A stretch of DNA of 34,209 bases, taken from positions 1-34,209 of IMG/VR virus record IMGVR_UViG_3300044638_009249; one strand, written 5' to 3'. Position 1 is the stretch's first letter. Each line of letters opens with the position of its first letter. The notes beneath the pieces are model-generated. The model worked only from the letters and a program-made list of their open reading frames with translations, ran no database searches and had not been told where the DNA came from. Shown here in pieces: positions 7,455 to 28,856 of this stretch. This DNA comes from a virus. The translations under genes were made by a program, and so were the position numbers.

Positions 7455-7828
7455 GGATGCCACCTCGACCGGGTCAGACTGGGAGCCGCCGCGTCACTCA
7501 CGGGCAGCACCTCAGCCACGGCTTGGACCTCGTACCCCCGCACCGGCTCCGAGATAGCCGACTGCTCCGACACGCCCGCCGTCACCACCTCGTGTAGCGT
7601 GTTGGCGCCGCGCCAGCGCCACAGCCGACGACCCTCCAAAAACGTCACCACCTCAGCAGTCGGGTCGTAGTCGGCCAGCAGCCCGACATGTACCCCGGCG
7701 TCCCGAGTCCGCACGAGCACGAGAGGACACAATCCCCGCTCGCGCAGCACTTCGCCCGTTCGCAGGCTGCGCACCTGGGCCTCGTCCTTCGCCACGGCCT
7801 TCTCAGACCTCGTGGGCGCGCGACTCAC
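7451..7828 (-). CDS. DUF6948-like phage protein
   Basis: The protein has 125 residues and a GTG start overlapping the stop of the ERF gene. The central part reads Val-Leu-Val-Arg-Thr-Arg-Asp-Ala-Gly-Val-His-Val-Gly, then Arg-Arg-Leu-Trp-Arg-Trp-Arg-Gly-Ala-Asn-Thr-Leu, then Gly-Val-Ser-Glu. This order is typical of the small phage family DUF6948, which has no known activity. The N-terminal 25 residues are basic and probably flexible. Its position next to ERF and the nuclease suggests early expression. Confidence 0.6.
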   Translation of the reverse strand: MSRAPTRSEKAVAKDEAQVRSLRTGEVLRERGLCPLVLVRTRDAGVHVGLLADYDPTAEVVTFLEGRRLWRWRGANTLHEVVTAGVSEQSAISEPVRGYEVQAVAEVLPVSDAAAPSLTRSRWHP

Positions 7829-8454
7829 TGACCACCGGCCTTCTCGCGCGCCGCGAGCAACGAGTGCCGCGCCGTGTACGCCGCACGGAGTCTGTCCGAC
7901 AACACCTTGTCCTGCTTGGCGGCCAACTCGGAGCCGATAAGCGTCAGGGCCGACAGCGTCTCAGCCGCCGCGATGCGCTGCGCCCATGACTCCGCGCGCG
8001 AGTCGCCCGACGCCGGGAACGGCACCACCTGCGCAGGGGGCGCCGCGTTGCGAGGCGCGACGCCACTGGCCGCGTTGCCGTCGTCATCGTCGTCCGGCGC
8101 GACACCCACCAACGCACTCAGCGCGTACCGCCGCGCGTAGGTGATGGCGCTCCCGACGCCTTGGGCCGTCGGTTTCTCGACAGGCATCGTCAACACTGAC
8201 GACACCGACTCGCCCGACTCGTGCAGGAGCCGCGTCTCGACCGTCACCGACGCCTTGTCGGCCGCCGTCACCAGTTGCACCACCGCAAGACCGTTGCTCG
8301 ACAGCGGCTCTCGGCAGGCGTCCCACACCGACGCGAGGTCGGCGTAGCGCTTATTGAAGGCCGGGTTCGTCTTGTCCTTGGATGCGCCCGCCATCACGCC
8401 CTGCGCCTTCGCCAGCGCCCTTGCGAGCGCACTCCCAGTCGTCGTCTCAGCCAT
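7825..8454 (-). CDS. erf: ERF-family single-strand annealing recombinase
   Basis: The protein has 209 residues. It shows the family hallmarks: Asn-Pro-Ala-Phe-Asn-Lys-Arg-Tyr-Ala-Asp-Leu near residues 30-40, and Gly-Ser-Ala-Ile-Thr-Tyr-Ala-Arg-Arg-Tyr-Ala-Leu near 101-112 followed by an acidic Asp5-Gly-Asn run (121-127). ERF proteins (named after P22 Erf) form rings that anneal complementary strands, driving circularisation of linear phage DNA and homologous recombination. The C-terminal third is an Ala-rich helical region beyond a Pro-rich linker. It shares an operon with the PD-(D/E)XK nuclease, as expected for an exonuclease/annealase pair. The start ATG overlaps the preceding gene by 8 bases. 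Confidence 0.92.
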   Translation of the reverse strand: MAETTTGSALARALAKAQGVMAGASKDKTNPAFNKRYADLASVWDACREPLSSNGLAVVQLVTAADKASVTVETRLLHESGESVSSVLTMPVEKPTAQGVGSAITYARRYALSALVGVAPDDDDDGNAASGVAPRNAAPPAQVVPFPASGDSRAESWAQRIAAAETLSALTLIGSELAAKQDKVLSDRLRAAYTARHSLLAAREKAGGQ

Positions 8455-9312: not shown

Positions 9313-9344
9313 GTGCTAAACGATTCGTCCCGTGTTAGATAACG
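9313..9344. promoter_or_regulatory. Possible operator next to the regulator gene start
   Basis: GTGCTAAACG (9313-9322) and GTGTTAGATAACG (9332-9344) resemble each other. The second contains GTTA-GA-TAAC, a small inverted repeat, and CTAA/TTAG arms at 9316-9319 and 9335-9338 are complementary. The block abuts the -35 of the leftward promoter and the ATG of the winged-helix gene at 9349, so it could be where that regulator binds. TTAGAT (9335-9340) could serve as a weak rightward -10. This is suggestive only. Confidence 0.3.
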
Positions 9345-9348
9345 GCGC

Positions 9349-9633
9349 ATGACACCTGCCCTACTCGACCTCCGACCCACCCACGCCGCTCTCCTGCGCG
9401 CCGTCGCCCACGACGGCAGCGTCCGCAGCCTCGCCCGGTCGCTCGGGTGGAGCCCAGCCCAAGTACACCAGTATCTCACCCGCCTCGCAGGCTGGGGCCT
9501 TGTGCGCAGCACCGACCGCACGTGGCTCGTCACCCCTACCGGGCAGGCCGTGACGCGCGGACTGACGCACGCCGAAGCCGCCTATGTGCGCGAAACCACG
9601 GGCGAAGTCGAAAATCGACCATCGCGCGCTTGA
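9349..9633 (+). CDS. Small winged-helix transcriptional regulator
   Basis: The protein has 94 residues. Residues about 9-70 read as a winged helix: three helices including Val-Arg-Ser-Leu-Ala-Arg-Ser-Leu-Gly-Trp-Ser-Pro-Ala-Gln-Val-His (turn and recognition helix), then a wing with Gly-Leu-Val-Arg-Ser-Thr-Asp-Arg-Thr-Trp-Leu-Val-Thr-Pro-Thr-Gly, as in MarR/IclR-type DNA-binding domains. No ligand or dimerisation domain follows. It faces the minus-strand early operon across a 170-bp control region and its last codons overlap the promoter at 9630-9658. It is therefore well placed to control both directions, possibly as a Cro- or repressor-like switch. No partner repressor is visible. Confidence 0.75.
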   Translation: MTPALLDLRPTHAALLRAVAHDGSVRSLARSLGWSPAQVHQYLTRLAGWGLVRSTDRTWLVTPTGQAVTRGLTHAEAAYVRETTGEVENRPSRA

Positions 9634-9658
9634 CACTGTGTCTAGTCGTGTCTATACA
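9630..9658 (+). promoter_or_regulatory. Strong sigma70-type promoter with a 10-bp-spaced direct repeat
   Basis: TTGACA (9630-9635) overlaps the stop of the regulator gene and is followed after exactly 17 bases by TATACA (9653-9658). Within the promoter, GTGTCTA occurs twice exactly 10 bp apart (9638-9644 and 9648-9654), one helical turn, so a protein could bind both on one face and block RNA polymerase. It should drive the plus-strand early genes from 9707 onward. Confidence 0.75.
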
Positions 9659-9706
9659 TATCTCACGACGGCGGCACTGACGCCGCGTCGCACCGGAGAG
9701 ACGACG

Positions 9707-9937
9707 ATGAACCGCACCACGCACTTCTACAACCGCAGCGGGCAGGTCGAGACGAAGGTCACCGAGAGCAACGAGGCCGAAATCTCGAAGCTGGCCTCGA
9801 TGGGTCGCGAGTGGCTGGCGGAGCAGGCCCGCCGCGCTCACCAGAACGCCTTCGACAACGCCAAGTCCGGCGGCTGGCGGGCGGCGATGGAGGTTCGATT
9901 GGCTGACTTTCGGGCCGCGTGGCGGCTGGCGGCGTAA
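9707..9937 (+). CDS. Small helical early protein
   Basis: The protein has 76 residues. The start is fixed by the leader GGAGAGACGACG directly before the ATG; the in-frame ATG at 9584 lies inside the previous gene. The protein is helical, with Arg-Glu-Trp-Leu-Ala-Glu-Gln-Ala-Arg-Arg-Ala-His-Gln-Asn-Ala and an Arg/Trp/Ala-rich end. It has no known domain. It is the first gene after the promoter at 9630-9658. Confidence 0.65.
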   Translation: MNRTTHFYNRSGQVETKVTESNEAEISKLASMGREWLAEQARRAHQNAFDNAKSGGWRAAMEVRLADFRAAWRLAA

Positions 9938-9944
9938 CCACCCG

Positions 9945-9999
9945 CCCGACCCCTCACCGGGTCGGGCCCGTCGCAGGGCGACTGCTCGCCCGCCCTGCG
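9945..9999 (+). repeat. Two perfect tandem hairpins in an early intergenic leader
   Basis: CCCGACCC (9945-9952) pairs with GGGTCGGG (9959-9966) around a 6-base loop, and CGCAGGGCG (9972-9980) pairs with CGCCCTGCG (9991-9999) around a 10-base loop. No T-tract follows either. They lie between the genes at 9707 and 10031 and just upstream of a repeated start-associated sequence. They may slow, stabilise or process the transcript, or serve as a protein-binding RNA element. Confidence 0.7.
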
Positions 10000-10030
10000 T
10001 AGGACTCCACTGGCGAGCCGAGAGACGACG

Positions 10031-10210
10031 ATGATTACCACTACTATCCAGATGACCGCCGCCGACGCCGCCAACGAGACTCACCTCCTGTCCGTGATGG
10101 ACGCCCGCGCGGAGGACGCGCTCGCGCGCGACTCGCGTCGACCCGGCAAGGTGCGCGTGGTGGTCGAGGTCGACGGCGCGGTGGTGCGCGAACACACCTA
10201 CTCGGCCTAA
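10031..10210 (+). CDS. Small early protein, unknown (59 residues)
   Basis: The ATG is preceded by CGAGAGACGACG, nearly the same leader as its two neighbours (9707 and 10235), which decides the start. The product begins Met-Ile-Thr-Thr-Thr-Ile-Gln-Met-Thr-Ala-Ala-Asp. It has a helical middle (Leu-Leu-Ser-Val-Met-Asp-Ala-Arg-Ala-Glu-Asp-Ala-Leu) and a strand-like end (Val-Arg-Val-Val-Val-Glu-Val-Asp-Gly). No family is recognised. The gene is short but fills the gap and uses the same initiation signal, so it is likely real. Confidence 0.65.
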   Translation: MITTTIQMTAADAANETHLLSVMDARAEDALARDSRRPGKVRVVVEVDGAVVREHTYSA

Positions 10211-10234
10211 TCACCCGCCCACGGAGACACGACG

Positions 10235-10447
10235 ATGACCAACAACAACGCCCGCATGAGCCTCAACAACATCCGCCGCACCACCACGCCGGAGTACCTC
10301 GGCACCGAGGCGACGCAGGCCGACGTGAAGAGCTACCTCCAGTTGTTGGCGGCGAACTGGCCCACCGACGACGCGGACGAGGTGGTCGACAACGACACCG
10401 CCGAGTTGGTGCAGTCGCAGACGTTTCGCGCGTGGTGCGCGCTGTGA
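10235..10447 (+). CDS. Small acidic early protein
   Basis: The protein has 70 residues. The start is marked by CGGAGACACGACG before the ATG. The protein is polar and acidic, with an Asn-rich N terminus, Asp-Asp-Ala-Asp-Glu-Val-Val-Asp-Asn-Asp in the middle and a Trp-Cys-Ala-Leu end. No domain is recognised. It is coupled to the next gene by GTGA. Strong negative charge is seen in some phage DNA-mimic inhibitors, but nothing specific supports that here. Confidence 0.65.
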   Translation: MTNNNARMSLNNIRRTTTPEYLGTEATQADVKSYLQLLAANWPTDDADEVVDNDTAELVQSQTFRAWCAL

Positions 10448-10617
10448 CCGCGCCCGTCGGCGTCGTCGTGTCCGTCTCGCCTCGAGGCACCCGCACCGTG
10501 CGGTTGTCGGACGGGCAGGAGGTGTTCCTCAGCGTCGAGCAGGCCGCTGCGCTGCTGACGGCCTTGGCTGCGGACGGCGAGGTGCATACGGCGTGGCTGC
10601 ACGGGAGGGCTCGGTAA
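10444..10617 (+). CDS. Small beta-rich early protein
   Basis: The protein has 57 residues. The GTG at 10444 overlaps the previous stop; an in-frame GTG at 10432 is possible. It is predicted strand-rich (Val-Gly-Val-Val-Val-Ser-Val-Ser, Arg-Thr-Val-Arg-Leu-Ser-Asp-Gly-Gln-Glu-Val-Phe-Leu) with one helix (Glu-Gln-Ala-Ala-Ala-Leu-Leu). No family is recognised. Its TAATG junction couples it to the HTH gene downstream. Confidence 0.55.
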   Translation: MTAPVGVVVSVSPRGTRTVRLSDGQEVFLSVEQAAALLTALAADGEVHTAWLHGRAR

Positions 10618-11021
10618 TGGGCGGCCAACGACTCGACGACGACGCAACGGAAGCCCGCGTCGTGCGCCTGGCGCGCGAGGGCGGACGCACGCCCAACAGC
10701 CTCGCTCTGGAGTGCGGCATCGGTCACATGGTGGTGCGCCGAATCCTCCGCGAGGCCGGCATCAGTCTCGCTGGCGGTGGCGACACGCGCGAGGTGTCCC
10801 GCGGCCACGTCGCGGCGGCGCTGGCCGAGCGCGAGGCGGGGAGGCCGCTGGTGGTGGAGTCGCTGACGCAGCGGCTCGAGCGGCTCGTCCCTGGGGCCGA
10901 GGTGGACTGGGTGGCCTCGCGCAACGAGTGGAGCGTCTGGCGCGACCGCGTGCTCGCCACCGGCCACACCGAGCGCGAGGCCGTGGAGAAGGCCATCGCG
11001 CTGTTTGGGGGACGGCGATGA
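10617..11021 (+). CDS. HTH DNA-binding protein
   Basis: The protein has 134 residues and an ATG overlapping the previous stop (TAATG). Residues about 12-50 form a resolvase/sigma-like helix-turn-helix: Ala-Arg-Val-Val-Arg-Leu-Ala-Arg-Glu-Gly-Gly, Asn-Ser-Leu-Ala-Leu-Glu-Cys-Gly-Ile-Gly-His-Met-Val-Val-Arg-Arg-Ile-Leu-Arg. The rest is helical and charged with Val-Asp-Trp-Val-Ala-Ser-Arg-Asn-Glu-Trp near residue 100. It is the last gene before the structured RNA at 11038-11161 and the replication genes, so it is a candidate regulator of that junction. Confidence 0.6.
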   Translation: MGGQRLDDDATEARVVRLAREGGRTPNSLALECGIGHMVVRRILREAGISLAGGGDTREVSRGHVAAALAEREAGRPLVVESLTQRLERLVPGAEVDWVASRNEWSVWRDRVLATGHTEREAVEKAIALFGGRR

Positions 11022-11037
11022 CTTGACGCACCCGCGC

Positions 11038-11161
11038 CCGTCGTGAGACGGTGCGCGACGACCGACGGGTGCAAGCCGTCGGGTGACCTCAGAGAGCGGC
11101 AGTCCAGCTCGCCCCACGTTGCGCCCGCTTGCACCGGGTTCGGCGTGGGGTTCGTTTTTTT
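11038..11161 (+). ncRNA. Structured leader RNA with an intramolecular kissing loop
   Basis: Consecutive hairpins can be read directly. H0: CCGTC/GACGG (11038-11051) with a GTGA (GNRA) tetraloop. H1: CCGACGG/CCGTCGG (11062-11082) with the 7-base loop GTGCAAG. H2: GAGCGG/CC-A-GCTC (11094-11110). H3: CCCCACG/CGTGGGG (11112-11150) with an inner CCCG/CGGG stem and the 7-base loop CTTGCAC, then seven T (11155-11161). The H1 and H3 loops are perfectly complementary, so they can form a seven-base-pair kissing complex; a longer 9-bp pairing (11068-11076 with 11127-11135) would instead break both stems. The T-tract abuts the ribosome-binding site of the gene at 11176. This suits a transcription attenuator, riboswitch-like control or a small terminated RNA. 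No known RNA family was recognised. Confidence 0.65.
11112..11161 (+). terminator. Intrinsic terminator or attenuator hairpin
   Basis: Outer stem CCCCACG (11112-11118) with CGTGGGG (11144-11150), inner stem CCCG/CGGG, then TTCG and seven T. It forms the last hairpin of the structured RNA and lies before the replication genes rather than at an operon end, which favours conditional termination. Confidence 0.65.
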
Positions 11162-11175
11162 CGAGGAGATGAACG

Positions 11176-11403
11176 GTGAAAATCAAGTTTGTTGTCGATG
11201 GTGATGGCGTGACGATCGAGGATGAGCACGGCAAGGTTTGGTGTGGTGAGAGACACGGCTTCGTGCATCCCGAGAGCGATTACTTCCAACTCTCGGACGA
11301 CTGCGTCGAGGAGCGATTCGCTACGCTGTCGCGAGCGGTTTGCAGCGCCAAGTGGCTTCCAGACATTCCAGTTGCAGCCCTTTGCAGGGTGATGAGGCCG
11401 TGA
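11176..11403 (+). CDS. Small protein, unknown, first gene after the leader RNA
   Basis: The protein has 75 residues and a GTG start with GAGGAG seven bases upstream, immediately after the T-tract of the leader RNA. The N-terminal half is strand-like (Lys-Ile-Lys-Phe-Val-Val-Asp-Gly-Asp-Gly-Val-Thr-Ile) with Cys near residue 23; the C-terminal half is helical with three more Cys/Trp positions. No family is recognised. It is less GC-rich than its neighbours. Its stop overlaps the initiator gene start (GTGA), so control at the leader RNA would set translation of both. Confidence 0.6.
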   Translation: MKIKFVVDGDGVTIEDEHGKVWCGERHGFVHPESDYFQLSDDCVEERFATLSRAVCSAKWLPDIPVAALCRVMRP

Positions 11404-12188
11404 GCAACATTTCTGTCGACCTGAAGGTCATCGAGGTGACCGGGCCGATGGTGGCGCGCGCCCTCGGCGAGCCCTTAGCGTACACCTTGGGCTGCCTCAA
11501 CCTGCTGTGGCACCGCTGCTGGAGCCTCAAGACGGACACCATCACGGCCGTGGGGCTTACCGGCATCTTCGGGCCCGAGAAGCTCGACGCTCGCATCGCG
11601 CTGCTGGTTGACGCGGGCTTTTTGGAGCCATTCGGCACACACTTCCGAGTCCGTGGCGCGGAGCGTTATTTGCGCATCCGGGAGGGCAACTCCAAGGGAG
11701 GACTCGCCGCCAAACGGAACCTCATCCCGGGCGGTCCGAGGGCATCACGAGCCGAGGTTGAGCCGAGCCCCCAAGCCGAGGGGGAGCCGAGAGGGAGCCC
11801 AGCGAAGGGCTCGGCTCCGCTCGGCTCTTCACCGAACACCGAACACCGAACACCGAACACTAGAAAAGAAAACAACACTGTCGAGCAAGCTCGACTGCCG
11901 GTCATCAGCGAGGACCGCATCACGCAAGACGAGACCGACGTGTGGCAGCACTGGAAGCACGTCATGGCGCACCCTAAGGCGGTGTTGACGAAGGACAGGC
12001 TGAAGCTGATTCGACGATGGCTGCCCGTGTACGGCGTCGAGCGCTTGCAGTCCGCCATCGATGGGTGTCGCCGAAGCCCGCACCACCGAGGCCAGAACGA
12101 CCGAGCCACCGTGTACGACGACCTTGAGCTGATTCTGCGCGACGCGAAGCACATCGAGATGTTCGAGAACATGCCGAGGGCCGCATGA
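11400..12188 (+). CDS. Replication initiator / helicase-loader-like protein
   Basis: The protein has 262 residues; the GTG overlaps the previous stop. The N-terminal part (about 1-95) looks like a winged helix with Tyr-Thr-Leu-Gly-Cys-Leu-Asn-Leu-Leu-Trp and Leu-Val-Asp-Ala-Gly-Phe-Leu-Glu-Pro, as in phage replication proteins that bind the origin. A polar repeat-encoded linker (about 115-160) follows. The C-terminal domain contains Trp-Gln-His-Trp-Lys-His-Val, Lys-Asp-Arg-Leu-Lys-Leu-Ile-Arg-Arg-Trp-Leu, and Asp-Asp-Leu-Glu-Leu-Ile-Leu-Arg-Asp-Ala-Lys-His-Ile. This pattern is common in phage proteins encoded just before a DnaB helicase and thought to load it. The repeat cluster inside the gene resembles the lambda O/ori plan. 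Confidence 0.7.
   Translation: MSNISVDLKVIEVTGPMVARALGEPLAYTLGCLNLLWHRCWSLKTDTITAVGLTGIFGPEKLDARIALLVDAGFLEPFGTHFRVRGAERYLRIREGNSKGGLAAKRNLIPGGPRASRAEVEPSPQAEGEPRGSPAKGSAPLGSSPNTEHRTPNTRKENNTVEQARLPVISEDRITQDETDVWQHWKHVMAHPKAVLTKDRLKLIRRWLPVYGVERLQSAIDGCRRSPHHRGQNDRATVYDDLELILRDAKHIEMFENMPRAA
11750..11878 (+). other. Candidate origin of replication inside the initiator gene
   Basis: AGCCGAG occurs four times directly (11750, 11761, 11774 and 11785) and twice inverted as CTCGGCT (11810 and 11820), with a perfect GAGCCC/GGGCTC hairpin at 11795-11812. Four head-to-tail copies of the 7-mer CACCGAA plus a partial copy follow (11830-11860). Next comes the most A/T-rich stretch nearby, TAGAAAAGAAAACAACAC (11861-11878). 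Repeats next to an easily melted A-tract inside the initiator gene copy the layout of the lambda origin in gene O. The 7-bp unit is short for a classical iteron. Confidence 0.5.
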
Positions 12189-13486
12189 GTCGCGACCTCG
12201 AACTCGCAGCCCTGCAGTCCCTCTGGAGTCTTGGCAACGCGTCGCCCGAGGTGGCGCAGCGCGTCCTCGACGAGACGGGCGCTGGCGTCGTCGACGTGGC
12301 GGACGAGGTGTTGCGCCCGCTGTGGGCCGCCGTGGAGGAGCGCATCCGCGCGCGGCGCCCGCTGGACACGGTGGCGATGGCGCAGTCCTTGGCCCCGTTG
12401 GGCGTTCACCCGGCCGTGGTGGCGTCGCTGGCCGAGTGGGTGCTGCCTGGTGTCGAGCGTGAGCGCCTGCTGGCCCTGCGTGACGCGGCTGCGCGGCGTC
12501 GGTGCCTTGACGCGATGCGACTGGCGGCCGGTCGACTCAAGGGCGGCGCGCCGCTGGCCGAGCTCGAGGCTGAGTTGCGCGCGCTGCCGGCGCTGGTGTC
12601 GGGGGTGAAGCCTCGCGTGCGCAGCGCCAAGGGCGACACGGGGCGCATCCTCGATGCAGCGCAGGAGGCGTGGGACAACAAGCGCGGGCCATCGCTGCGG
12701 ACGGGCTACGACGAGTTTGACGCCGTGCTGCGGTTGACGCCCAACCTCCACGCGGTGGGCGCACACCCCGGCGTCGGCAAGTCTGCGTTGGTGGCCGGAC
12801 TCGTGCGGGCGTGGACGCACCAGGGCGTCACGGTGGGCGTGCTGGCGTACGAGGACGACGGGCTCGACCTGCAACGGCGCATCCTCGCGGCGGAGGCGGA
12901 GCTCGACCTCTCGGCCGTGTCGGGCGACCGACTGCTCGACAACGACGAGATGGGCCGGTGGGCGGCGGGGCACCGCGTGCGCGAGGAGGCCGAGCGATTC
13001 TTGCTCATCGACGACGAGCACCCGCGCGGGACGGTGGCCGAAGTGTGCGCGTCGCTGCGGACGATGCGCGCGCAGGGCGCACAGGTGGCCATCCTCGACA
13101 ACCTTTCGTGCGTGCGCATGGATGTCGACGACGAGCGGCACCTCGCCATCGAGGCGGCGCTGCTCGAGATTCGCGAGACGGCGCTGGCGCTGCGCATGCC
13201 GGTCATCGTCGTGGGGCACCTCAAGCGCAGCATGACGTCGGCCAACGAGGTTGCGACCGAGCCGCGGTTGACGGACTTCGCTGGGGCGGCGTCGTGGGAG
13301 CGATTTGCGCGGAGCTGTTGCGGCATGTGGCGCGGCGAGTCGGGGCCGATGCTGGTTGTGCTGAAGCAGAACGCGGGGCGCGTCGGTGACCGGTTTCACG
13401 TCGACATGCTGGAGAAGGCCGCGTGCGTGACGGGGCTGCGATTGGCGCCGTCCGAAGAGGCCAGGACGACACGGAGGAGCTACTGA
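12185..13486 (+). CDS. DnaB-like replicative helicase
   Basis: The protein has 433 residues and an ATG overlapping the previous stop. The N-terminal 110 residues are helical like the DnaB N-domain (Glu-Val-Ala-Gln-Arg-Val-Leu; Leu-Asp-Thr-Val-Ala-Met-Ala-Gln-Ser-Leu). A RecA-type motor follows: Walker A Gly-Ala-His-Pro-Gly-Val-Gly-Lys-Ser (192-200), Ala-Tyr-Glu-Asp-Asp with the likely catalytic Glu223, Walker B Val-Ala-Ile-Leu-Asp-Asn-Leu (301-307), and Val-Val-Gly-His-Leu-Lys-Arg (342-348) in place of the usual Ser-Gln-Leu-Asn-Arg. It should be a ring helicase unwinding 5' to 3' at the fork, loaded by the gene just upstream. With no phage polymerase present, host replication enzymes are presumably used. 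Confidence 0.87.
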   Translation: MSRDLELAALQSLWSLGNASPEVAQRVLDETGAGVVDVADEVLRPLWAAVEERIRARRPLDTVAMAQSLAPLGVHPAVVASLAEWVLPGVERERLLALRDAAARRRCLDAMRLAAGRLKGGAPLAELEAELRALPALVSGVKPRVRSAKGDTGRILDAAQEAWDNKRGPSLRTGYDEFDAVLRLTPNLHAVGAHPGVGKSALVAGLVRAWTHQGVTVGVLAYEDDGLDLQRRILAAEAELDLSAVSGDRLLDNDEMGRWAAGHRVREEAERFLLIDDEHPRGTVAEVCASLRTMRAQGAQVAILDNLSCVRMDVDDERHLAIEAALLEIRETALALRMPVIVVGHLKRSMTSANEVATEPRLTDFAGAASWERFARSCCGMWRGESGPMLVVLKQNAGRVGDRFHVDMLEKAACVTGLRLAPSEEARTTRRSY

Positions 13487-14788: not shown

Positions 14789-15121
14789 ATGGCCAAGCCA
14801 GGGACATTCCAGAAGGGCGACGGCCGACGACGCGGGCCGCCTCCGTTGCCTGCCGAGATTCGGGAGGCGTTTCGCGCGGCGTCGCCGAAGGCGCTCGAGA
14901 CGCTCCAGTCCGTCATGCGTCGTTTCGACGAGGGCGACGCCGCCGTGCCCGCTTCGGCCGCTGTGAGTGCGGCCGTCGCGGTGCTGGACAGGGCGTGGGG
15001 CAAGCCGCAGTCGGCGCCGGAGGACCTCGACGCGCTGACACAGGCGACGCGCCCCCTTCGCGACGTCGCCACCGATGCGCTTGCGAGGTTGGCCAAGATG
15101 CCGCATGACGACGACGAGTGA
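14789..15121 (+). CDS. terS: Terminase small subunit candidate
   Basis: The protein has 110 residues. It starts Met-Ala-Lys-Pro-Gly-Thr-Phe-Gln-Lys-Gly-Asp-Gly-Arg-Arg-Arg-Gly-Pro, the (R/K)-P-G-x-F-x-x-G-x-x-x-R-x-G-x-P tail-like motif often found in phage DNA-packaging and DUF5681-type proteins. A helical core (about 20-95) follows. Lying immediately before and overlapping the large terminase, it is the natural candidate for the DNA-recognition subunit that marks phage DNA for packaging. The assignment relies on position and that motif. Confidence 0.6.
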   Translation: MAKPGTFQKGDGRRRGPPPLPAEIREAFRAASPKALETLQSVMRRFDEGDAAVPASAAVSAAVAVLDRAWGKPQSAPEDLDALTQATRPLRDVATDALARLAKMPHDDDE

Positions 15122-16622
15122 CGACGACGCCCGAGTAGCGCTGGAGTCGCGTCGCGAGCTGTGGCGCCGCGGCGCATGCCACGCATACCTGCTGGACGAG
15201 GCCGGTCCGACGGGCGGGCAGCGTGCGTGGTTCCACATGCTGAACGACATTCCCCCCGGGCGTTGGGCAGCGCTTGAGGTGTCTCGCCAGCGGGGCAAGA
15301 CGTTCACGGTACTGGCGTGGTTGTTCCAGTCGCTCGGGTTGCGCAGCCAGCGCGGCGTCTTCCTCGCGCAGACAGGCGCCAACAGCTTGAAGATCGTCGA
15401 CCAGTTCATCAAGGATGTCGGCAACAGCTTCCCGCCAGAGTGGGGCGTGGAGTTGGTGGACGGCGAGGTGCGGTTCGCGAATGGGTCCGAGGTGGCCGTT
15501 TTCGGGACGGACAACGCGCAGTTTCGCCGCAGCCGTGGCCGAAACGCCCACAAGGTGGTGTTGTCGGAGGCTGGCTTCTACGCGTCGCTCGCCGAGGTGG
15601 AGAGCGTCTACATTCCGCAGCTTCAGACGACGGGCGGCGTTGGCGTGTATGAGTCTTCGCCGGCCGAGAATCCGGCCCACGACTTCAGCAAGCGGTGCGA
15701 CGCCTCCATGGCCGTGGGACGGTACGTGCGCGACACCTTCTGGAGCAACCCGCGCATCGACCACGAGGCCATCATCCGAGGTGAGATGGAGCGACTGCGC
15801 ATGACGCGCGAGGAATTGTTCGCGTCCACGGCGTTCCGTCGGGAGTTTCTCGCGCAGCGAGTGACGGAGGAAACGCGCGCGGCCGTGCCGGCATGGACGG
15901 ACGAGGCGGCGGCCGAGCTCGTCGGCGACTGGGTGCGTCCAGAATACTTCGACGGCTACGTGGGGCTCGACGTCGGGCGTTGGGGCGACCCGCACTTTGG
16001 CTTCCTCGGCTACCACGACCCGGCCACCAACACGTTCACGGTGGAGCACGAGCTCGAGATGCGAAGCGCTCCGACGCACATCGGCGGATTCATCGACGAG
16101 ATGCGGCGACTCGAGCGTGAGGCCTGGGGCGTCAACCGGTGGGAGGGGACGCTCTACGGCGTTACGCGCGAGGACATTGCACAGTGGCCGGAGCATCTGC
16201 GCTATCTCTGCGACGCGAACGCGCCGCGTCAACCGTACCTGCGAGTCGGAGACGACGACGCGCGGCTCGTCATCGACGTGCGAGCGACGCACGGCTACGG
16301 CGTGGTGCCCGCGCAGAAGGCCGACAAGTACAAGGCCGTCGACGACCTCAACCAGCGCGTTCGCGAGCGACGCTGGCGCGTGCACCGGCGGTGCGTGCGC
16401 ACCATCGAACAGTACCGGTCGACGTTGTGGAACCGCAGCCGCAGCGAGTGGGAGCGCACGGAGAGGGACCACGGCGACGCGGTGGACGTTTCGCTGTACG
16501 TGCAGCGCGTCATCCGCTGGCACCGTGACTGCCGCCCGCCGACGCCGCTGCCGCCTGAGTTGACGGCCTCCATGCCCCGCAAGCCGACGCCCCAAGGGTG
16601 GACGGGCGTGTTTCGCCGGTGA
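15105..16622 (+). CDS. terL: Terminase large subunit (ATPase and nuclease)
   Basis: The protein has 505 residues and the ATG lies 17 bases inside the small-subunit gene. Walker A-like Ser-Arg-Gln-Arg-Gly-Lys-Thr (60-66) and Walker B-like Val-Val-Leu-Ser-Glu-Ala (151-156) mark the packaging ATPase. The RNase H-fold nuclease shows Gly-Leu-Asp-Val-Gly-Arg-Trp-Gly-Asp (Asp289), Asp370 and Gly-Asp-Ala-Val-Asp-Val-Ser (Asp458/Asp461). Terminases pump DNA through the portal into the prohead and cut concatemers. It precedes the portal by 58 bases. A 599-residue open frame on the opposite strand is only a shadow of high GC. Confidence 0.92.
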   Translation: MTTTSDDDARVALESRRELWRRGACHAYLLDEAGPTGGQRAWFHMLNDIPPGRWAALEVSRQRGKTFTVLAWLFQSLGLRSQRGVFLAQTGANSLKIVDQFIKDVGNSFPPEWGVELVDGEVRFANGSEVAVFGTDNAQFRRSRGRNAHKVVLSEAGFYASLAEVESVYIPQLQTTGGVGVYESSPAENPAHDFSKRCDASMAVGRYVRDTFWSNPRIDHEAIIRGEMERLRMTREELFASTAFRREFLAQRVTEETRAAVPAWTDEAAAELVGDWVRPEYFDGYVGLDVGRWGDPHFGFLGYHDPATNTFTVEHELEMRSAPTHIGGFIDEMRRLEREAWGVNRWEGTLYGVTREDIAQWPEHLRYLCDANAPRQPYLRVGDDDARLVIDVRATHGYGVVPAQKADKYKAVDDLNQRVRERRWRVHRRCVRTIEQYRSTLWNRSRSEWERTERDHGDAVDVSLYVQRVIRWHRDCRPPTPLPPELTASMPRKPTPQGWTGVFRR

Positions 16623-26441: not shown

Positions 26442-28856
26442 GTGGCCTCCGTGCTGAATGTCGACTTCAAGGGCCTAGTGACGGCGCCCGGGCTGCTCAT
26501 GCGCAGCCCTGCGTCGTGCACGGCCGCCGTCAACGCGCTGTTCGATGCGCCGGGGTTGGTGCGTAAGCGGCCCGGGTTTCAGCGCGGCACGTCGGGCACT
26601 GGCGCGGGCGTGCACGCGCTGCACACGTCACCCATCCTTGGCCCCTTGTTCCTCGTGCACGAGGGAAGCGGGGCGACAGGGACAGGAATGCGCCTGGCCT
26701 CAGGCTTTGCCGCAAGCATCGGCTTGTCTTCGGTGGACAGCAGCGCCGTGGACAGAAGTGTCGTGGGTGTGAAACAGCAGATGGCCCTGTCCGGCCGCAA
26801 TCACTACCTGACGGCAGACAACGGAGTTCGGCGCGTGGAGTTGGCGAGCGGGCCCGTGCGGTTTGCCGGTATGCCTCGCGGGCTGTCGCCGTCGCAGGAA
26901 TCCGGCCTCTACAATGTCCTCGTCGCCACCGCGCCAACGTGGCTTGCGCACAACTTCTCGGTGGCGTACCGCGCAACGTGGCATCGCGTCGACGCAGGCG
27001 GCATCGAGCTGGGCGGCGCGCCGACGGGCCGAGCCATCGTTCGAAACATCACAGGCACCACCGGACACTCGGGCGGCTCTGCGCGCAGCGTGTCGATTCG
27101 CGTTCCGGTGCCGCGGGAGTTCGGCACGCTGTCGACGGCGCTCACCACGTCGTATTTTTACCGTCTGTGGCGCTCCCGCCAATCGGCGACCGAGCCGGAT
27201 GACGAGATGTACCTCGTGGCCGAGGCCTTCCTCACGTCAACAGACATCACCAACGGCTACGCCGTCGTCAACGACCTGACACCCGACGCCGTCGCCATCG
27301 GCAACGCGAGACTCCACACCAATCCCGTCAACTTCCCCGATGGAGAGCCGGGCGCCTTGAAAGCGGGCCAGTTCAACGCGGACGACCCACCGCCCGCCGC
27401 CAACGACGTTGCGACGTGGCGCGACTGCCTGTGGACGGGCGACATCACCACGTGGCCCGCGTACACGGCGCAGCTCCTCTCGGTGGGTGGCTCCGGTTTC
27501 GTGGCGGGCGACACGGTTTCCCTGGATGGGACGAATTTCCTCACGGGCAGCGCCGGTGCGCCTGGTGCGGGACAGTTTCAGGTGGTGACAACGCTCGGTA
27601 CACTGTCGCTGAACATCGAGGCCACGGCGAGAAACCTCGTCGACCGACACAACAGCCTGTTCGCGTGTCTCGGCACGTCGCCGGTGTTTGCGTACTACGT
27701 CTCGCAGTCGTCGGCCGCACCGGGGCAAATTTTCGTCGAGACGAAGCAGTATGGGAGCGGCGCCAGTCCCACGACGTCGCGGCCCGCAGCGTTTCGGCTG
27801 CCATCGTCAGCCAGCCAAGTCGTGGCTACCAACCGAATCCGTTACAGCAAGCCCGGCCGCGCCGACGCAATGCCCGTCATCAACGAGTTCGACGTGGGGC
27901 CGCGCTCGTCGACGGTGCTGCGACTGGTTCCATACCGAGACAGGCTGCTCGTCTTCACCGACACGGGCATCTTCCAGGTGACGGGCTCGAGCTATGCCGA
28001 CTTCGAGGTGTCGCCGTTCGACCTGACTTACCGTCTTCTCGGCCGCGGCCTCGTGGCGCTCTGCGACGACCGCGTCTTCGCGTGGTGCGCTGAGGGCATC
28101 ATCGAGGTGGACGAGGGCGGTGTGCGAGTCATCTCCGCGTCGATTGAGCCAACCATCACGGCCATCGTTGCGGCGGCCGGAACGTCGCTCCCCTCCTACG
28201 GCTACGCCGTCGGTTACCGCCTTCAGCACCGCGTCGTCTTCATGTACCCGCCCGACGCGCTCTCTGGAGCTCGCGGGTGCATCCAAGGCTTGGCGTGGGA
28301 CACACGCACGCAGGCGTGGAGTCAGATTTCGTTCACGGACGCAGAGCTGGCAGACAACGGATTCAAGTCGTGCGGCGTGGCTCGATTCAGTGACGACCGA
28401 CTCGTGCTGGGGTGGTGGAACCCAGCCGGCGGCGACGGACAGGTGTTCGTCGAGCGTCGCGGGTTGACGGCCGCCGACTACACGGACGACGACGCGGCCG
28501 GGAACAGCGTCACCTACGCGTTTTCGCTGGCGTGGCAGTTCCAAGTCCCAGACGCGGAAGGCGCCGTGCACTGGCAGCAAACGGTGTTGCACTTCGACGG
28601 CGGCGAGTTCGCGTGGCGAGGCAACCCGACTGCAGTCACGCTGGCATACAGCACGGAGTGGGCCACGGGCACCATCACTCCCACCATCGCAGCGCCACCG
28701 CTCGGCGTGTCAGCCGTGTCTCGCGTCGAGATTCCGCGCGTGGTGCGCCGAGGACAACGACTGCGTCTCACCGTCACCGCGCCCGGTGGCGCATTCGGTC
28801 TCGTCGGCTTGTCGCAGTCGTACCGGCCGGGCACCCGTTTTGCGAGGCGTGACTGA
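26442..28856 (+). CDS. Large tail hub / stabilisation-like protein (P22 gp10-like)
   Basis: The protein has 804 residues. The GTG start directly follows the previous stop, with GGAGGTGG overlapping the end of that gene. The N terminus reads Cys-Thr-Ala-Ala-Val-Asn-Ala-Leu-Phe-Asp-Ala-Pro-Gly-Leu-Val-Arg-Lys-Arg-Pro-Gly-Phe, the opening usual in P22 gp10-type DNA-stabilisation or nozzle proteins that close the short tail. The rest is strand-rich with repeated blade-like motifs (for example Leu-Leu-Val-Phe-Thr-Asp-Thr-Gly-Ile-Phe-Gln-Val-Thr-Gly and Ala-Trp-Asp-Thr-Arg-Thr-Gln-Ala-Trp-Ser-Gln), suggesting a beta-propeller-like ring. It is the largest gene here. Confidence 0.7.
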   Translation: MASVLNVDFKGLVTAPGLLMRSPASCTAAVNALFDAPGLVRKRPGFQRGTSGTGAGVHALHTSPILGPLFLVHEGSGATGTGMRLASGFAASIGLSSVDSSAVDRSVVGVKQQMALSGRNHYLTADNGVRRVELASGPVRFAGMPRGLSPSQESGLYNVLVATAPTWLAHNFSVAYRATWHRVDAGGIELGGAPTGRAIVRNITGTTGHSGGSARSVSIRVPVPREFGTLSTALTTSYFYRLWRSRQSATEPDDEMYLVAEAFLTSTDITNGYAVVNDLTPDAVAIGNARLHTNPVNFPDGEPGALKAGQFNADDPPPAANDVATWRDCLWTGDITTWPAYTAQLLSVGGSGFVAGDTVSLDGTNFLTGSAGAPGAGQFQVVTTLGTLSLNIEATARNLVDRHNSLFACLGTSPVFAYYVSQSSAAPGQIFVETKQYGSGASPTTSRPAAFRLPSSASQVVATNRIRYSKPGRADAMPVINEFDVGPRSSTVLRLVPYRDRLLVFTDTGIFQVTGSSYADFEVSPFDLTYRLLGRGLVALCDDRVFAWCAEGIIEVDEGGVRVISASIEPTITAIVAAAGTSLPSYGYAVGYRLQHRVVFMYPPDALSGARGCIQGLAWDTRTQAWSQISFTDAELADNGFKSCGVARFSDDRLVLGWWNPAGGDGQVFVERRGLTAADYTDDDAAGNSVTYAFSLAWQFQVPDAEGAVHWQQTVLHFDGGEFAWRGNPTAVTLAYSTEWATGTITPTIAAPPLGVSAVSRVEIPRVVRRGQRLRLTVTAPGGAFGLVGLSQSYRPGTRFARRD

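Follow-up and report, generated by a model that had tools for sequence, protein, structure and literature searches.

A phage replication-module leader with a predicted terminator hairpin whose loop appears to co-evolve with that of an upstream hairpin

Results

Early genes and replication module at the locus

The window, by which we mean the whole stretch of 34,209 bases analysed, is the linear virus record IMGVR_UViG_3300044638_009249, with 69% G+C, and derives from an uncultured phage. On its plus strand an early cluster runs rightward from a promoter-like site through several small genes and the gene at 10617–11021 to a leader and then the replication module. The putative promoter (9630–9658, plus strand), read from the sequence as TTGACA-N17-TATACA, is a strong match by its letters and a candidate for the early rightward promoter of the operon containing the leader, which lies ~1.35 kb downstream; our strict promoter scan requires T as the final base of the second hexamer and so did not list it. 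The spacer of this site holds two direct TGTCTA repeats, 10 bp apart, which are possibly tandem repressor sites. The gene preceding the leader (10617–11021, plus strand) encodes 134 aa from its ATG, or 142 aa from a GTG at 10593, and is HTH-like by eye; family searches returned no match for its product or for the 75-aa product of the first gene 3' of the leader (11176–11403, plus strand, start GTG 11176). The stop codon of the latter overlaps the start of a gene for an O-like replication initiator (11400–12188, plus strand; PHROG 16167, E 1e-16; longest ORF 11340–12188, likely start GTG 11400), which is followed by one for a DnaB-like replicative helicase (12185–13486, plus strand; PF03796, E 4.5e-18). 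Since a gene for an ERF-type recombinase (7825–8454) occupies the strand opposite the early cluster, the layout resembles that of lambdoid early regions.

Between two early genes (~9943–10000), adjacent G+C-rich inverted repeats, GCCCGACCC..GGGTCGGGC and then CGCAGGGC..GCCCTGCG, were noted by eye and may form another structured RNA or a pair of put-like hairpins. A search of 50,697 named phage records gave the terminase (15075–16622) and an 804-aa protein (26442–28856) a single distant relative each, in both cases from a Silvanigrella aquatica phage and at 22–28% identity, and the phage group is therefore essentially unsampled.

A four-hairpin leader ending in a predicted terminator

The intercistronic leader (~140 nt, 11018–11161) lies directly before the first gene of the replication module and has four hairpins, A–D, in the predicted fold, in agreement with the compact multi-hairpin RNA proposed in a first-pass annotation made from the sequence alone. 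Hairpin A (11033–11057) has a GTGA loop and one bulged T; the GNRA-loop hairpin that had been placed at 11038–11051 does exist, although that range covers only its upper half. Hairpin B (11062–11082) has a stem of 7 bp and the loop GTGCAAG (11069–11075), whereas hairpin C (11094–11110) is weak, at −3 to −4.7 kcal/mol. Hairpin D (11111–11151), the terminator stem, has a predicted energy of −28.0 kcal/mol and the loop CTTGCAC (11128–11134), the exact reverse complement of loop B in all seven positions. Stems B and D had both been called perfect, but D is not quite so: a 1x1 mismatch separates 11 pairs (3 G-U included) from 5 pairs. The T7 tract of the intrinsic terminator (11155–11161) and its overall signature are likewise as first described, except that the tract begins 3 nt past the stem rather than at its end. 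One nucleotide beyond it lies the GAGGAG ribosome-binding site (11163–11168) for the gene that follows. The feature coordinates given in the first-pass annotation were correct on checking sequence and fold.

The predicted fold of 11018–11176 has an energy of −76.4 kcal/mol (z = −2.4 against shuffles, compared with −3.9 for the homologous leader described below), so that the leader is predicted to be only moderately more stable than shuffled sequence. A closing helix, TTGACGCACC/GGGTGACCTCA, predicted in the window was set aside, being absent from the homolog fold. We also rejected the leader as coding sequence, given that the indels between the two alleles are not multiples of three, as well as a promoter at the conserved CTTGAC just past the upstream stop codon, where on reading neither allele has a correctly spaced −10.

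The loop match was described at first as unlikely by chance, which does not hold for the window as a whole when hairpins are defined permissively: in DNA this rich in G+C, 7-mer loop matches are then common, averaging 0.8 per shuffled 34 kb and turning up in 48% of shuffles. Demanding complementarity of the whole loop (7/7) and a good stem lowers the mean to 0.027 per shuffled strand, and the strict match together with a T-tract occurred in 0/150 shuffles. In a similar scan of ~1 Mb of strand sequence from the fetched loci, just three sites passed, namely the present leader, its homolog and one unrelated to either. The loop match in the window alone is suggestive and not conclusive.

Both loops change together in a homologous leader

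Scanning viral contigs by protein and by pattern yielded a single leader homolog, so that two alleles of the family are known; other pattern matches in these contigs were read and lacked the leader structure. The homolog occupies 1862–2003 of IMGVR_UViG_3300045999_013119 (L003, L013, L025 and L036 are the same record, called L036 below) and follows the same upstream gene. Its loops, CCGCAAG and CTTGCGG, again match perfectly over 7 bp, with double changes at two positions, and are spaced 58 nt apart compared with 59 nt in the window. Over all helices and the loop–loop helix (42 pairs), 36 pairs are unchanged, five show two-sided compensatory changes (one in B, two in D and two in the loop–loop helix), one is changed on one side and none is broken. 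When the 11 substituted paired positions were placed at random, all pairs remained standard in 0/300,000 trials; for hairpin B and the inner stem of D we set the gap registers by structure, which favours pairing. The loop–loop covariation is independent of these gaps: two random substitutions per loop keep perfect pairing with P ~0.005. Hairpins A (identical in both alleles) and C are invariant and therefore uninformative on covariation, and the segment GCAGTCCAGCTCGCCCC, running from C into D, is the same sequence in both. In each allele a G+C-rich stem-loop with a T-tract close behind, as expected of an intrinsic terminator, immediately precedes the ribosome-binding site of the gene that opens the module, with T7 in the window and a stem of −31.5 kcal/mol and T6 in the homolog, and the early claim of a terminator ahead of the replication genes is upheld by this conservation.

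The two phages are mosaics. Positions ~9,319–10,942 of the window are identical to ~151–1780 of L036, that is, over more than 1.6 kb of early genes; divergence starts at the end of the upstream gene, homology stops at the terminator, and the modules 3' of it are unrelated until ~13,500, with the leader kept before both. We interpret this pattern as a recent exchange of modules, the left border of which falls within the gene at 10617–11021. Because the leaders differ and the modules beyond them are unrelated, the comparison is between two diverged alleles and not near-copies. In a further related contig, L004, the upstream gene is present (only 82–83% DNA identity to the window) and the leader is absent, with a gene that is DNA methyltransferase-like by eye coming directly next; the leader is therefore an optional cassette, dispensable for this phage group. 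The final ~39 bases ahead of the point where the upstream gene becomes variable (10961–10999 in the window, 535–573 in L004) are identical in all three phages, and could be a recombination anchor beside the exchangeable modules.

With complementary apical loops, 7/7 in both alleles (n = 2), and compensatory changes in them, the loop–loop complementarity in this phage terminator leader is real and apparently under selection, as had been suspected from the window. Neither an absence of covariation nor independent divergence of the loops, the two outcomes that had been named as counting against the idea, was seen in this comparison with one homolog. We consider a co-evolving loop–loop contact to the terminator hairpin to be well supported by the paired changes, in two alleles only.

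A loop–loop contact is favoured over refolding

The first-pass annotation also proposed that the loop bases pair as a 9-bp helix destroying both stems, giving a two-state switch. Neither part held up. Beyond the seven loop pairs, the longer helix takes in no more than one closing pair per hairpin and so would not on its own disrupt both stems, and in the homolog, where complementarity ends exactly at the seven loop bases, the extension is absent. Moreover, with the kissing energy excluded, the nested fold is the more stable one in both alleles: refolding around the long-range helix costs 5.5 kcal/mol in the window (−65.3 versus −70.8 kcal/mol) and 13 kcal/mol in the homolog (−54.4 versus −67.4 kcal/mol). 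Thus, a conserved, mutually exclusive helix of comparable stability, as a terminator/antiterminator pair would have, was found in neither allele, and a tertiary contact compatible with both stems is favoured over a switch, since refolding is energetically worse and the extension is not conserved.

The loop–loop duplex is predicted at −8.7 and −10.1 kcal/mol for the matched alleles and at −6.1 and −5.9 kcal/mol for the crossed combinations. In the isolated fold of the homolog, loop D is partly closed; freeing it would take ~4 kcal/mol, a cost below the energy gained by loop–loop pairing. By rough estimate a coaxial B–kiss–D stack would measure ~31 bp (87 A), which the 28-nt linker would just span with C folded and easily with C open; as the reach of the linker depends on the state of C, this weak hairpin could matter for contact in cis.

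Searches for related RNAs

Searches of Rfam 15 with both alleles, at gathering and relaxed thresholds, gave no family match, sub-threshold matches being chance only, and neither allele matches the C4 model. BLASTN searches of phage and plasmid sequences with the leader returned short chance matches only, and nothing related was found in the genome contigs searched. A covariance model built from both alleles detected no further copy in the window, the related contigs or the fetched loci (best others E ~0.1–1). Relatives of the helicase were likewise absent from the 398 genomes searched, which belong to the phylum of a Lysobacterales genome. The leader is thus without known relatives, by sequence or covariance model, in Rfam, phages and plasmids.

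Discussion

The reading that we prefer, with a probability of about 0.5, is that the leader is an intercistronic attenuator of the early operon, in which a kissing contact between hairpins B and D of the same transcript tunes the terminator. Transcripts from the upstream early promoter would pass the small early genes and reach the leader with its intrinsic terminator. Hairpin B would be transcribed first, its loop would pair with that of terminator hairpin D in the same RNA, and this contact would set how efficiently D halts RNA polymerase and hence the level of transcription into the replication module. The invariant elements (hairpin A, and hairpin C with its junction to D) are probably a scaffold or a binding site for polymerase or a factor, on which the loop pair would drift as a matched set. 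No promoter is visible between the terminator and the first module gene, so the replication genes would be reached only by read-through, which makes an early-operon attenuator, in a position comparable to lambda tR1, the simplest reading. Co-variation of loop B with the terminator's own loop in turn implies a role for the contact, either in termination or in what becomes of the RNA once terminated. We infer transcription of the leader, contact between loops B and D, its action in cis and an effect on termination; the contact could raise or lower termination, and could act within one transcript or between transcripts. Control of termination through a loop–loop contact at the apex of an intrinsic terminator is, to our knowledge, not yet established as a regulatory mode; the proposed mechanism is plausible.

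Known systems share parts of this design, the nearest in function being the P4 CI, P1/P7 C4, Gifsy-1 IsrK and HK022 put RNAs. In satellite phage P4, too, RNA pairing and premature termination take place in a leader that precedes replication genes; its CI RNA is a processed, trans-acting RNA pairing with complementary leader segments, whereas the partner of loop B here is the terminator's own apical loop. In ColE1, RNAI and RNAII interact through fully paired 7-nt kissing loops, and pT181-type attenuators regulate termination ahead of a replication gene. The likeness to ColE1 raised in the first-pass annotation holds for loop size only: there and in pT181-type systems the antisense is a separate transcript of the opposite strand, whereas both loops of the leader lie on one RNA, and no antisense RNA is therefore needed for their match. 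HK022 put and lambda nutR/tR1 resemble the leader in placing an RNA element and a terminator in the early operon ahead of the replication genes. The C4 RNA of P1/P7, as described in the excerpted account, is a structured, RNase P-processed phage RNA of three stem-loops, excised from the leader of the operon that it targets, in which variable loops set target specificity and loops a' and b' act at ribosome-binding sites (PMC5320573); here there is no Rfam C4 match and the candidate target is a terminator loop. IsrK of Gifsy-1 is also a phage leader RNA ending in a terminator ahead of the next gene, whose mRNA arises by read-through, and the shorter transcript is able to act on the longer; unlike the reading preferred here, IsrK activates translation via alternative helices, and the excerpted account describes no kissing loop to the terminator (PMC4825925). 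Indeed, the excerpted accounts of C4 (PMC5320573), IsrK (PMC4825925) and put (PMC9378689) describe no kissing contact to a terminator hairpin.

The loops could instead act in trans, accumulated terminated leaders pairing through B or D with nascent leaders of the same type and so exerting feedback or immunity-like control on the replication genes, comparable to P4 CI or P1 C4 RNA. This is rather unlikely, even though the scaffold is constant while the loop pair differs between phages as a matched set, crossed loop pairs are 2.6–4.2 kcal/mol weaker than matched ones, and the leader sits before replication genes. Loop D moreover starts with CUUG in both alleles (1/16 by chance), which fits the YUNR U-turn, a motif of antisense-recognition loops. 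The partner loop, however, is always available in cis at higher local concentration, and we saw no separate promoter or processing site, no match to the Rfam C4 model and, in the window and homolog, no other target of either loop beyond chance. An extension of the idea, in which a fixed scaffold with exchangeable kissing-loop pairs would form an RNA specificity system, an upstream loop addressing the terminator loop that gates replication and each phage or module being attenuated only by its own leader type in an RNA-only immunity or copy-control code, is speculative and decidedly improbable.

That the leader is an ordinary, constitutive module-border terminator, its loop match coincidental or a mere folding aid, seems quite unlikely to us. 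Terminators often mark phage mosaic borders, the leader lies at the point where two mosaics diverge, and permissive loop matches are common by chance; coincidence, however, sits poorly with double compensatory changes in the loop pair, and a mere border with leader architecture kept between an identical 1.6 kb upstream and unrelated modules downstream. A constitutive stop within the operon would, moreover, silence the replication genes, no promoter being visible past that stop.

Its position in an early operon before a terminator and replication genes, and the invariance of hairpin A and the C/D junction, would also suit an antitermination platform, in which A–C would act like HK022 put or a nut site, promoting read-through of D and later terminators, with the loop match only shaping the fold. 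We hold this to be very unlikely: there is no sequence match, and the co-variation of the terminator loop with loop B would be left unexplained. Compared by description, its architecture also differs from that of put RNA, which in the excerpted account consists of two long stem-loops of ~70 nt that bind RNA polymerase, with no terminator loop involved (PMC9378689). It is barely credible that the inverted GCAAG...CTTGC cores, ~59 bp apart beside the initiator gene, are instead protein-binding sites or part of a replication origin with an incidental RNA fold, since the repeats sit at the apex of two compensated stems in both alleles and the T-tract is on one strand only.

As an attenuator tuned by contact between hairpins B and D, the folded leader would probably gate the timing at which phage replication is switched on. 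If it acts as proposed, it would allow a terminator to be controlled without protein, through a simple complementarity code located at the boundary of exchangeable replication modules, and would provide a testable early-to-replication switch for an essentially unsampled phage lineage.
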